Below are positions 36,996 to 40,528 of a DNA stretch of 64,000 nucleotides, in pieces. The position numbers were made by a program, and so were the translations under genes. A model generated the notes under the pieces. The model was not told the DNA's origin. It did not search any database and saw only the letters and a list, made by a program, of their open reading frames with translations. Positions within the stretch are counted from its first letter, which is position 1, and each line of letters opens with the position of its first letter. The stretch comes from Methanoregulaceae archaeon (lineage in GTDB: Bacteria > Armatimonadota > Fimbriimonadia > Fimbriimonadales > Fimbriimonadaceae), in NCBI GenBank assembly GCA_020850325.1, contig JADZEW010000031.1, forward strand, positions 1-64,000, given 5' to 3'.

Positions 36996-38006
36996 TTAGC
37001 CTCGGATGTCCACGAAGACCGGCAGATGGTCGGAGGCCCCGGTGCCCTTCTCGGTGTAGACGGCTCGCCCCTCGGCGTTCTTGGACGTTCGGCCGGTGGT
37101 GCCTTCAAGGGCATCCTTTCCGGAGAAGATCATGGGCGTAGCCGCGCGCGGGGCGAGTCCTGGGCTCACGAGAATCTGGTCGAACAGCACGCCCTCGGTG
37201 AGCACGTCGTCTGGGAAGCGATACTCCTTGCCCCGGAATCGCTCGTTCTCCGACTTCGCGCGGTTCATGATCGGCTCCAGCGGCTGACCCTGGTAGACCT
37301 TGTTCAGGCCGAGCGTGACGTAGTCCTTATCGTACAGCGGCTCCATCAGGTTGACCATGAGCGGCTTGCTGCTCGAGACGCGTCCTCCCTCAACGGCGAG
37401 GTTGCCGGTTTCGAGGATGTTGACGCTGACGTCATCGGGGGCGTCGTTCAAGTCGCCGAGGACGACGTGGTGCTCCTTCGGACGCTGGGCGATCCACGCG
37501 GCGAGCATTCCCATCGCCATCTGGCGTTGCGGATCGGTGTTCATGCGTCCGCCGCCCCGGCTCTTGTTGTGGAGCACGTACACGGAGAACTTCTCGCCGG
37601 TCGGCCCCACGACCACCGCCCACAGCACGTCGCGCTTGCCGGGGAAGGGGAAGTCGAGTTCCTTGCCGCGAAACAGCGTGGTGTAGGATTCGACGCGGTA
37701 CGGCTTACGGACGACGAGCGCGACCTCTTGGTCCTCGTCGACTTCGTCCATGATCGCGATAGTGTAGTTGCTATCGAAGAACTGTTCGAGCGCCTTGCGG
37801 CTCGAGATCTCCTGCAGACCAATGACGTCGGCGTTGACGCTGCGGAAGATGTTCTTAAGGCGGTTGACCCGATCGGGATGCGCGTCTTCGCTCAGCCACT
37901 GGATGTTGTAGGTGGCGAACCGGGCGGAGTCGGATCGAGTTTGGGGAATGCATGCCACGCCCACCGCGAGCACGGCGGTGACGAGCAGGGAACGCAACCA
38001 ACGCAT
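36996..38006 (-). CDS. exported endonuclease/exonuclease/phosphatase family protein
   Basis: 336 residues from ATG 38006. TACCCT ends 7 nt upstream of it; a longer frame from 38033 would cross that hexamer and is rejected. The start MRWLRSLLVTAVLAVGVAC gives a lipobox-like signal (AVGVAC). The EEP fold shows FATYNIQWLSED, DVIGLQEI (metal-binding Glu), VYVLHNKSR, VVLGDLNDAPDD and the terminal SDHLPVFVDI. It may act on nucleic acids, sphingolipids or phosphoinositides outside the cytoplasm; the substrate is open. Confidence 0.82.
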   Translation of the reverse strand: MRWLRSLLVTAVLAVGVACIPQTRSDSARFATYNIQWLSEDAHPDRVNRLKNIFRSVNADVIGLQEISSRKALEQFFDSNYTIAIMDEVDEDQEVALVVRKPYRVESYTTLFRGKELDFPFPGKRDVLWAVVVGPTGEKFSVYVLHNKSRGGGRMNTDPQRQMAMGMLAAWIAQRPKEHHVVLGDLNDAPDDVSVNILETGNLAVEGGRVSSSKPLMVNLMEPLYDKDYVTLGLNKVYQGQPLEPIMNRAKSENERFRGKEYRFPDDVLTEGVLFDQILVSPGLAPRAATPMIFSGKDALEGTTGRTSKNAEGRAVYTEKGTGASDHLPVFVDIRG

Positions 38007-38013
38007 GGGCATG

Positions 38014-38019
38014 AGGGTA
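38014..38019 (-). promoter_or_regulatory. -10-like hexamer of the EEP gene
   Basis: TACCCT on the minus strand, ending 7 nt before ATG 38006. Confidence 0.45.
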
Positions 38020-38047
38020 CCCCTCACGCCCACCGTTGAGCCGATTC

Positions 38048-38329
38048 TTAACCCATGCGATCGGCGATCGCGCGGCGGATCATCGCGTCCGCGATGTCAT
38101 CGCCCGAGGGATTGTAGGTGCCCGCGTCGACGCGCGCCTTCAGTTCGGCGATGCGATCTTCGCGATCGGGCATGTTCAGGACTTCCTGAACGACTTGCCG
38201 AACGAGTTCGGCGTCTTCGGGTCGAGGATAGCTTGCCGGATTCAGGTCCATATCTTGGATCTCACGGATGAGTCCGCGCTGAACCAGCAGCTCCCTAACC
38301 ATTTTCACTTGTGCGTCTGATATCTGCAT
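38048..38329 (-). CDS. flgM: FlgM-like anti-sigma-28 factor
   Basis: 93 residues. The C-terminal half DREDRIAELKARVDAGTYNPSGDDIADAMIRRAIADRM has the FlgM pattern: a helix, the GTY turn, then an I-A-x-x-M/L helix that wraps the flagellar sigma factor FliA. The N-terminal half (VKMVRELLVQRGLIREIQDMD) is unlike classical FlgM and may be lineage-specific. A strong GGAAGGAG site precedes the ATG by 8 nt. The ~260-base leader region upstream contains a GEMM-class riboswitch, so second-messenger control of flagellar gene expression is likely. No other flagellar gene is in the window. Confidence 0.7.
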   Translation of the reverse strand: MQISDAQVKMVRELLVQRGLIREIQDMDLNPASYPRPEDAELVRQVVQEVLNMPDREDRIAELKARVDAGTYNPSGDDIADAMIRRAIADRMG

Positions 38330-38414
38330 CTTGAGAACTCCTTCCGTGTTCCGCTTGGATCGAGTTGACCTGACCCTCAGACGGCTTACGGATGCTCGTT
38401 GATTCGATCTATCA

Positions 38415-38508
38415 GACAGGCGTCCCGGCTATCTCTCCTCCGCTCCAGCAGCTTTGAGATCCTAGGCTTTGCGTGATCGAGGTCACCCTCGTCTTGCCTT
38501 TTTCTGTC
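38415..38508 (-). ncRNA. GEMM / cyclic-di-GMP-I-type riboswitch
   Basis: On the minus strand the aptamer reads in order: GGCAA (from 38498); a stem CGAGG/CCTCG capped by the GNRA tetraloop GTGA (38478-38491); the invariant core ACGCAAAGCC (38465-38474); a stem whose 3' strand leads into ATAGCCGGG (38424-38432); and the closing GCC of P1. This matches the c-di-GMP-I (GEMM-I) consensus in sequence order and in the tetraloop/receptor arrangement. GACAG at 38504-38508 can extend P1 with CTGTC (38415-38419), or instead pair with CTGTC at 38511-38515, giving a plausible alternative fold. It lies 85 nt upstream of the flgM-like ATG. Confidence 0.82.
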
Positions 38509-38593
38509 GAGACAGGTTTTGCCTGCCGTTGGTTATGTATCGGCACCCCCTCAAGAGTTCATTAGGGGCTCCCAAGCACTTTTTCGAGTTTTT

Positions 38594-40528
38594 TTAATTT
38601 GTTTCCCGATCCATGCGTTCGGGTGCGCTGATGCCGAGCAGGCTGAACACCGATCGCAGCGCATTTCGGGTGGCCACGCACAGTGAGATGCGGGCGCGGC
38701 TGAGCTCAGGATGCTCCGGCTGGATCACGCGACAGGCATCGTAGAAGTGGTGATACGCCCTGGCCAGGTCAATGGCGTAGGTCGCAAGGCGGTGCACGCC
38801 GTAGTCCTCGGCGGCTCGGCTGACCTCGTAGGGGAGGTCGGCGATCATCTTGATCAGCGCGAGCTCCTTCGGGTGATCGATTAGGCTCGGATTCGACTCG
38901 GCGGTGAGGCCGGCCTCGGCGGCCTTGGCGATGACGCTGCAGATGCGGGCATGGGCGTACTGCACATAGAACACCGGGTTCTCGTCGCTCTGTCGCTCGG
39001 CGAGGTCGAGGTCGAAGTCGAAGGTCGTATCGTGCGAGCGCATCAAGTAGAAGAAGCGCGCGACATCTTTGCCGACTTCCTGCTGCTCGGCCTTGCTGGC
39101 GTTGGGTTTCACGGTCCGCCCGATCTCGTCGACGAGATCGATGATCGCGTAGATGTTTCCGTCGCGCTTCCGCATCGGAGCGGGCTTGCCCTCCTTCATG
39201 AAGCGCACGAGTTGGAAAATGACGACTTCGAGCTTCTCTTTCGACCGGGCGAGCGCAGCTTGGCATGCGTCTCGGTCAGCAGGGGAGTCGTAGAGCTTGG
39301 CTTCGAGCTCGGTCAGCGGAGCGGCGTCCGAGTTGTTGCTCGGGGCCATTTCCAGAGCCGCGACAACGGCATGCAACCGCCCGATGTAGCCGTGATGGTC
39401 GGGCCCGAGGATCGTGATCAGCTTTTCCGCGTCTGCCGGCCGGTTGAACTTGTCCTTGTGATAAGCGACGTCGCTGGCGATGTAGGTGAGCCGCCCGTCT
39501 TGGCGCTTGAGGACGCGGTCTTGGTCATCGCCGAACTTGGTTGATCGGAGCCAGAGGGTCGCGTTCTCCCCCTCTCCGCTTGCGGGGAGGGGGCTGGGGG
39601 GTGGGGTCAACTCCCCGTCATCCTCAGTCGCGCCCGCTTGCGTCTCGATCTCGACATCCTCGAGCACGCTGCCCTTACCGAGCTTGAGCTTGTTGCGGAT
39701 CGGCCGCGTATCGGCGGCACCCTTCGCCGCGAGTTCATCGATGTCCTGGGCGACGATGCCCCGGTCGTGGAGCGACTGCTCGGAGAACCAGGTGTCGAAC
39801 TCGGTGGCGAATACGGAGAGGTCCGTGTGCTGCCGCTTCAGCATGAGCGCTTGGCTCTGCTGCTGGAACCAGTCGACGGTCTCTCCGCCCGCGGTGGTCA
39901 AACTGCTCGCGACTTCTTGAACATAGTCGCCTTTGTAGCCGTTGTCTGGCACCGGGCGTCCTTCGACAAGCGCTTTCACGCTCTCCGCGAACAGTCGCAT
40001 CTGCTCGCTGTTCACGCCGTCGTTGATGTAGTACTCGCGGTGGACGGTGTTGCCCGCCGCCTCGAGCACGCTGCACAGCGTCGAACCGAACGCGGCACCT
40101 CGCCCCGAGCCGATCGTGATCGGCCCGTTCGGGTTCACCGAAACAAACTCGACGTTGATTCGCTTTGGACTCGGGTTGTCGCGGCCAGCCGCATGGGCGA
40201 GTTGCTCACCCTCGGCGAGCAGCGGAGTCAGCCAGCCCGCGATGTAGCCCGGTGTCAGGCGGAAGTTGATAAACCCGGGTCCGGCGACGTCGATCGACTC
40301 AAAGACCGACGCATCGGTAACCGCCTCGCGGACCATCTCGGCGAGTTCGCGGGGGTTCTTGCCCGCGGGCTTCGAGGCCACGAGCGCAAAGTTGGTGGCG
40401 AAGTCGCCGTGGGCAGGGTCGCGGGGGTCGGCGATCTCGGCGCGAGGCAGGCCCGATGGCAGACGCCCCTCGCTGACGAGCGCGTCGATGGCATGCTGGA
40501 GCCGCTGGGTGAGATCGTGCCGAATCAC
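38594..40528 (-). CDS. argS: arginyl-tRNA synthetase with altered HIGH motif and in-frame insert
   Basis: 644 residues, longer than the usual 550-590. The N-terminal Arg-S domain, Rossmann catalytic domain and C-terminal DALR anticodon-binding helices (LARAYHHFYDACRVI...LGISAPERM) are all present, as is the MRKRDGN counterpart of KMSKS. The HIGH motif region reads NPNGPITIGSGRGAAFG, where family members have HVGH, so both histidines are missing. Residues ~307-321 are encoded by a palindromic repeat inserted in frame. The start is GTG with TACAAC 6 nt upstream. It is downstream of secG. It may be divergent but active, or a paralogue. Confidence 0.92.
   Translation of the reverse strand: MIRHDLTQRLQHAIDALVSEGRLPSGLPRAEIADPRDPAHGDFATNFALVASKPAGKNPRELAEMVREAVTDASVFESIDVAGPGFINFRLTPGYIAGWLTPLLAEGEQLAHAAGRDNPSPKRINVEFVSVNPNGPITIGSGRGAAFGSTLCSVLEAAGNTVHREYYINDGVNSEQMRLFAESVKALVEGRPVPDNGYKGDYVQEVASSLTTAGGETVDWFQQQSQALMLKRQHTDLSVFATEFDTWFSEQSLHDRGIVAQDIDELAAKGAADTRPIRNKLKLGKGSVLEDVEIETQAGATEDDGELTPPPSPLPASGEGENATLWLRSTKFGDDQDRVLKRQDGRLTYIASDVAYHKDKFNRPADAEKLITILGPDHHGYIGRLHAVVAALEMAPSNNSDAAPLTELEAKLYDSPADRDACQAALARSKEKLEVVIFQLVRFMKEGKPAPMRKRDGNIYAIIDLVDEIGRTVKPNASKAEQQEVGKDVARFFYLMRSHDTTFDFDLDLAERQSDENPVFYVQYAHARICSVIAKAAEAGLTAESNPSLIDHPKELALIKMIADLPYEVSRAAEDYGVHRLATYAIDLARAYHHFYDACRVIQPEHPELSRARISLCVATRNALRSVFSLLGISAPERMDRETN
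39566..39606 (-). repeat. GC-rich palindromic element P, copy 3, inside argS
   Basis: The arms CCCCCTCTCCGC and GCGGGGAGGGGG plus the tail CTGGGGGGTGGGG match copy 2. It is read in frame by argS as a Pro/Ser/Gly-rich segment (TPPPSPLPASGEGE) with no stop codon. Confidence 0.85.

Follow-up and report, generated by a model that had tools for sequence, protein, structure and literature searches.

Known c-di-GMP-I riboswitches and the sigma-28 checkpoint

Two c-di-GMP-I (GEMM-I) riboswitches offer the closest points of comparison. Cd1 of Clostridioides difficile precedes the flgB operon, and through it c-di-GMP lowers flagellar expression by transcription termination, an OFF response (PMC5386303). 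Bc1 of Bacillus thuringiensis acts at the level of translation, with involvement of the ribosome site and the start codon (PMC11218506). The locus described here lies in a 64,000-nucleotide stretch of DNA, referred to as the window. Like Cd1, it has a GEMM-I aptamer through which c-di-GMP would lower the expression of flagellar genes; like Bc1, it would be controlled at the level of translation. Cd1, however, stands before an early structural operon, has a sigma-A promoter and terminates transcription, whereas the gene regulated here encodes an anti-sigma factor, the promoter is of the sigma-28 type and a translational ON switch is proposed. Upstream of mcpE, Bc1 combines a long platform with two terminators, whereas this leader has no terminator and its switching partner is coding sequence. 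The known FlgM/sigma-28 checkpoint shares a FlgM family protein, FliA and a sigma-28-type promoter before flgM with this locus, where, unlike in the known checkpoint, an RNA sensor sits between the promoter and flgM.

The aptamer class is already known. What appears to be new is that across nearly the whole order it is coupled to flgM, behind a sigma-28-type promoter, and that coding sequence forms a sequestering helix; searches of open-licence papers for flgM together with a c-di-GMP riboswitch gave C. difficile papers and papers on other subjects, and flgM may have been listed among GEMM-associated genes before. Known targets of the second messenger include flagellar gene regulators and structural operons; in this case c-di-GMP appears tied to the sigma-factor checkpoint itself, in an arrangement conserved across an order whose biology has been studied very little. 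We propose, with a probability of about 0.7, that a sigma-28-dependent transcript has near its start a c-di-GMP riboswitch of class I, which controls flgM translation and turns it ON when its P1 helix takes the place of a helix with the first flgM codons.

A GEMM-I aptamer upstream of flgM

Minus-strand positions 38508-38415 match two covariance models of the c-di-GMP-I class. RF01051 gives 34.2 bits (E=7.7e-5 for the whole 3.5 Mb genome, where this is the sole RF01051 match), and RF03167 (c-di-GMP-I-GGC) gives 30.5 bits (E=1.7e-5 in a 301-base search with relaxed thresholds), the best E-value in the clan. Because both scores fall under the Rfam gathering scores (35 and 59 bits, respectively), a default Rfam scan at curated thresholds reports no match for this region, and for this reason relaxed thresholds and relatives were used. 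The two E-values confirm that the match is beyond chance, and the relatives lift it above doubt. The first-pass annotation had read the element as a GEMM/c-di-GMP-I riboswitch before a flgM-like gene and had named RF01051 as the model to run; the model does match, if at a score just below its gathering cut-off, and the reading holds.

The order of elements described in that annotation was likewise recovered on the minus strand: P1 GACAG, GGCAA, a GNRA-capped stem, ACGCAAAGCC, a long stem, ATAGCCGGG, GC and CUGUC (Table 1). Together they form a three-stem junction with the conserved GGCA / CGCAAAGC / AGCC..GC core. The core sequence, the three-stem architecture closed by P1, the bases G20, A47 and C92, and the site before a motility-related gene are those of RF01051 GEMM-I; the regulated gene differs in encoding an anti-sigma factor, and the window's family has an extra bulged base in P2 and a GUGA/GCGA loop. 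Three lines of evidence support the identification as a GEMM-I aptamer preceding flgM: the matches to both covariance models, conservation across nearly the whole order and the invariance of the ligand-contacting bases.

The protein encoded downstream scores 46.5 bits with PF04316, above the cut-off of 25, and 24.2 bits with the NCBIfam equivalog model TIGR03824, below the cut-off of 40.75, and appears to be a divergent member of the wider FlgM family that would be expected to bind FliA. Its start codon follows P1 by 85 nt. The genome also encodes FliA (236 bits), FlhA, FliG, FliF and flagellins and has eight GGDEF matches, which makes both a flagellar system and c-di-GMP synthesis plausible in this organism.

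Table 1. Features of the flgM leader and its surroundings in the window
Feature	Position	Strand	Basis
Putative sigma-28 (FliA)-type promoter: CTAATG (38565-38560), 15-nt spacer, GCCGATAC (38544-38537)	38537..38565	-	12/14 matches to CTAAAG-N15-GCCGATAA
c-di-GMP-I (GEMM-I) aptamer	38415..38508	-	covariance models; invariant columns in alignment A1
Aptamer P1 5' strand GACAG	38504..38508	-	sequence; P1 pairing counted, 97.5% of cells paired
GGCAA	38498-38494	-	sequence
Aptamer stem P2, GUGA tetraloop (38486-38483), one bulged base (38477)	38475..38493	-	form of most family members
Core segment ACGCAAAGCC	38474-38465	-	sequence
P1 3' strand CUGUC (38419-38415) and extension	38410..38419	-	pairing and covariation analyses
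Switching strand GUCUGAUA, pairing in P1 (GUC) or with flgM codons 3-5	38417-38410	-	
Shine-Dalgarno AGGAG, 8 nt before start codon	38338..38342	-	sequence
flgM, 93 aa, anti-sigma-28 factor, only copy in genome	38048..38329	-	PF04316
Anti-initiation target UAUCAGAC, flgM codons 3-5 (AUA UCA GAC)	38315..38322	-	pairing, covariation, codon bias
argS, flanking the flgM leader region	38594-40528		
Endonuclease/phosphatase-family gene, other flank	36996-38033		

The ligand site

Among the details of how GEMM-I bases contact the ligand, positions 20 and 47 define specificity, and cAMP-GMP sensors (GEMM-Ib) carry A at position 20. In Vc2 numbering, G20, A47 and C92 fall at 38498, 38470 and 38420 of the window, and the core that includes them is invariant in the 34 aptamers of alignment A1. 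These three bases have been named as contacting c-di-GMP (PMC11218506). Since position 20 is G in the window, as throughout the alignment, c-di-GMP is the better reading of the ligand than cAMP-GMP, judged from sequence together with literature knowledge, and we infer that the window aptamer binds it; the first-pass annotation had named c-di-GMP, or cAMP-GMP for a subclass, and the former is now favoured. That the aptamer instead senses another cyclic dinucleotide, be it cAMP-GMP or the ligand of the GGC variant, while using the same flgM switching mechanism, we regard as improbable. The best clan E-value does belong to RF03167, but the base that marks the GGC variant, a G at the A47 equivalent (consensus ACGCGAA), is A in the window (ACGCAAA) and in all relatives aligned, which places the window outside that variant, and the G at position 20 is unlike the A of cAMP-GMP sensors. 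Two genomes outside the alignment (G056 and G062; loci L019 and L020) read AGCA for GGCA, with A at the G20 equivalent, and their specificity might differ.

Conservation of the aptamer-flgM arrangement

The comparison covered 121 related genomes from Fimbriimonadaceae and other Armatimonadota. RF01051 matches in 92 of them, usually once per genome and mostly before flgM, and exceeds its cut-off in 80, for the most part at the orthologous element. At 78 of the 86 loci read, in 77 genomes, the aptamer match is followed at a distance of 13-87 nt by the start of a FlgM-type ORF; the remaining eight comprise additional copies, members of other classes and a doubtful match. The arrangement recurs at loci read later, in a Capsulimonadaceae record (L111) and, outside the order but within the phylum, in G103, G105, G111, G112, G117, G119 and G120. 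The same RNA before flgM in relatives, with its core kept in the close ones, is what the first-pass annotation led one to expect.

Ten FlgM-bearing genomes that seemed to be without the element were read again: five (G007, G024, G054, G055 and G076) have it below detection, and the flgM loci of the other five, G029, G047 and three genomes of one genus (G004, G033 and G050), contain no aptamer core. G029 and G047 (1.5 Mb; L145 and L147), which belong to the window's family, retain FlhA and FliA along with a FlgM-like protein and have neither the MRISD start of FlgM nor the aptamer. Three sister genomes without flagella (G043, G064 and G067) are devoid of the aptamer, FlgM and all GGDEF proteins, parts that were lost together. 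The closed 5.2 Mb genome G061 (L073) is without FlhA, FliG, FliF and flagellin and keeps FliA, FlgM, the aptamer, the promoter motif and the codon helix described below, along with 11 GGDEF matches; in this genome FliA may regulate functions unrelated to flagella. High-scoring second GEMM-I copies that do not precede flgM occur in G060 (C5, L007; 79.9 bits) and G041 (C15, L013; 67.5 bits).

A putative sigma-28-type promoter

The textbook sigma-28/sigma-D consensus is CTAAAG-N15-GCCGATAA. This motif or a close match to it stands upstream of the aptamer in almost every genome, with a mean of 11.65 matches out of 14, against 8.50/14 in shuffles and 8.14/14 in random pieces of the same loci. In some genomes it also precedes one flagellin (12/14 in G000, the window genome, and 13/14 in G081), although not all flagellins, and the promoter assignment therefore comes mainly from the flgM leaders. 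An exact-pattern search of five whole genomes was too strict; one of its matches precedes a flgB-flgC-fliE-like operon. Transcription of the leader would thus start at a sigma-28-type promoter; in C. difficile, likewise, flgM depends on sigma-D (PMC5386303).

An alternative helix between P1 and the flgM initiation region

When the P1 3' strand was aligned to the initiation region, a second partner for this strand emerged. In the window, GUCUGAUA (38417-38410) and UAUCAGAC (38322-38315) form eight contiguous pairs with a duplex energy of -12.1 kcal/mol. In the window's family the P1 3' strand reads CUGUCUGAA, complementary to AUU UCA GAC, which are codons 3-5 of flgM; the window has AUA there, in keeping with a change of its own in the opposite strand. 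Across 24 distinct sequences of the family, 95.8% of cells are paired, and nine cells are altered on both sides, against 2.0 in shuffles, none of 500 of which reaches nine; sliding the partner by 1-3 columns reduces pairing to 27-46%. The helix is also present in all seven genomes or records that were read later and had played no part in its discovery (G007, G024, G052, G054, G055, G058 and L109), although two of these, G052 and G058, are closely related to genomes from the first set.

The codon usage at Ser4 carries the imprint of this pairing. Base 6 of the P1 3' strand pairs with the Ser4 wobble base in 29 of 29 cases (U-A 22, C-G 6, G-U 1), and Ser4 is UCA in 22 of the 29, against a background of 6% among the serine codons of these loci. 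The complementarity might be a by-product of Ile-Ser-Asp conservation or of AT-rich codons near the start, with the aptamer acting through another platform. There is a real bias of this kind, UCA reaching 12% in the N-terminal codons of other ORFs, but 22 of 29 is far above it (Fisher p=3.5e-11; shared ancestry of the sequences makes this and all other p-values here too small). Other serine codons of the same genes are UCA in just 4 of 92 cases; where Ser4 is UCG or UCU, it is the non-coding partner base that becomes C or G; and family genomes with another P1 sequence show no preference for UCA (5/22). We consider such a by-product improbable. The reading in which the helix is a switching element, and apparently forces a rare serine codon at Ser4, is the one we retain. 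A coding sequence that serves as switching partner is an unusual platform, and its use can be read from the sequence, where a rare serine codon covaries with a base outside the coding region; the mechanism can for this reason be tested by a synonymous codon change.

In a second family of the order, the P1 3' strand is CUGUCUCC and its partner is the Shine-Dalgarno sequence GGAGGCAG; several members of a third family have, between the Shine-Dalgarno sequence and the start codon, a GACAG with which CUGUC can pair. The codon helix is absent in a sub-group of the window's family whose P1 3' strand begins with CAAA. The common principle, as far as it can be read from these leaders, is that the P1 3' strand would have two partners, P1 and the initiation region. 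At the level of sequence and folding, the alternative pairing and the aptamer exclude each other, as in a translational ON riboswitch.

A different switching element had been suggested in the first-pass annotation, namely an extra hairpin at 38504-38515 competing with P1. The four-base-pair hairpin (38515-38504, CTGT CTCG ACAG) is present as sequence. It is limited to two species of the window's genus, whose leaders are identical there, and does not appear in the predicted minimum-energy fold. Lacking comparative support, it was rejected in favour of flgM codons 3-5 as the better-supported alternative partner of P1.

Direction of the switch

Folding ensembles with and without the aptamer imposed were compared, and the cost of opening positions -14 to +16 was taken as readout. 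Across 73 leaders, aptamer formation lowers this cost by a median of 3.65 kcal/mol, against 0.01 in shuffled and 0.63 in swapped leaders, the latter value reflecting the tendency of a folding program to prefer the open state once an aptamer is imposed. No leader of the 73 shifts by more than 1 kcal/mol toward the closed state, and the Wilcoxon test of the effect gives p=7e-14. The drop is 2.3 kcal/mol for the window and 4.0 for its sister species; the window's gain exceeds that of most shuffles (rank 0.92) and is unremarkable among swapped leaders (rank 0.33). Accessibility of the Shine-Dalgarno sequence alone also supports ON switching across the order (a median log2 of 2.8 versus 0.02 in shuffles), with no change in the window (log2 0.28); this readout does not capture the codon helix, and the opening energy of the entire initiation region was used in its place. 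The window's own platform is the weakest part of the case, given its modest modelled effect and its long linker of 85 nt, where most of the order has 13-45 nt.

These computed shifts suggest that c-di-GMP most likely turns FlgM on and so lowers sigma-28 activity; the first-pass annotation had proposed that the messenger sets the FlgM level, and the codon helix and the folding models agree with this and supply the proposed direction. The opposite sign, in which c-di-GMP lowers FlgM by termination, for example, or by P1 blocking a nearby ribosome site, has a precedent in Cd1, the best-known flagellar GEMM-I riboswitch, which works by termination (PMC5386303), and start codons only 14-25 nt from P1 in several relatives make steric effects possible. 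We hold it to be unlikely on four grounds. First, the coding (minus) strand of the window leader contains no terminator, and intrinsic termination was rejected on this basis. Second, a covarying helix that competes with P1 predicts release upon ligand binding. Third, none of the 73 leaders becomes less open by more than 1 kcal/mol once the aptamer has formed. Fourth, less FlgM at high c-di-GMP would raise flagellar expression, contrary to the usual role of c-di-GMP.

Proposed mechanism and circuit

The ON switch that we favour would operate as follows. In the absence of ligand, the 3' strand of P1 and the next few bases would pair with flgM codons 3-5, closing the ribosome-binding site and the start codon within a long-range hairpin, and little FlgM would be made. 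Binding of c-di-GMP would stabilise P1 and withdraw its 3' strand from the codons, upon which the initiation region would open and FlgM would be produced. FlgM would hold FliA (sigma-28), and high c-di-GMP would in this way lower the FliA regulon, flagellar genes included; the mechanism predicts lower FliA-dependent expression at high c-di-GMP in these organisms. As FliA appears to drive flgM itself, the circuit would also be a negative feedback loop.

As a general rule, c-di-GMP opposes motility. An ON switch before flgM would agree in sign with this rule and with Cd1, by a different route. A broader interpretation, which we offer tentatively and consider somewhat doubtful, is that the circuit is phylum-wide, with c-di-GMP setting a whole sigma-factor regulon through an anti-sigma RNA switch that sequesters codons 3-5, and that in at least one lineage, represented by the closed genome G061, it has persisted after loss of the flagellum and may control FliA-dependent genes of other kinds.

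A repeat within argS

The window contains two copies of a palindromic repeat, CCCCTCCCCGCNAGCGGAGAGGGG, at 39569-39592 and 160-183, where none is expected by chance. One copy lies in frame within argS and is translated as part of LTPPPSPLPASGEGENA.
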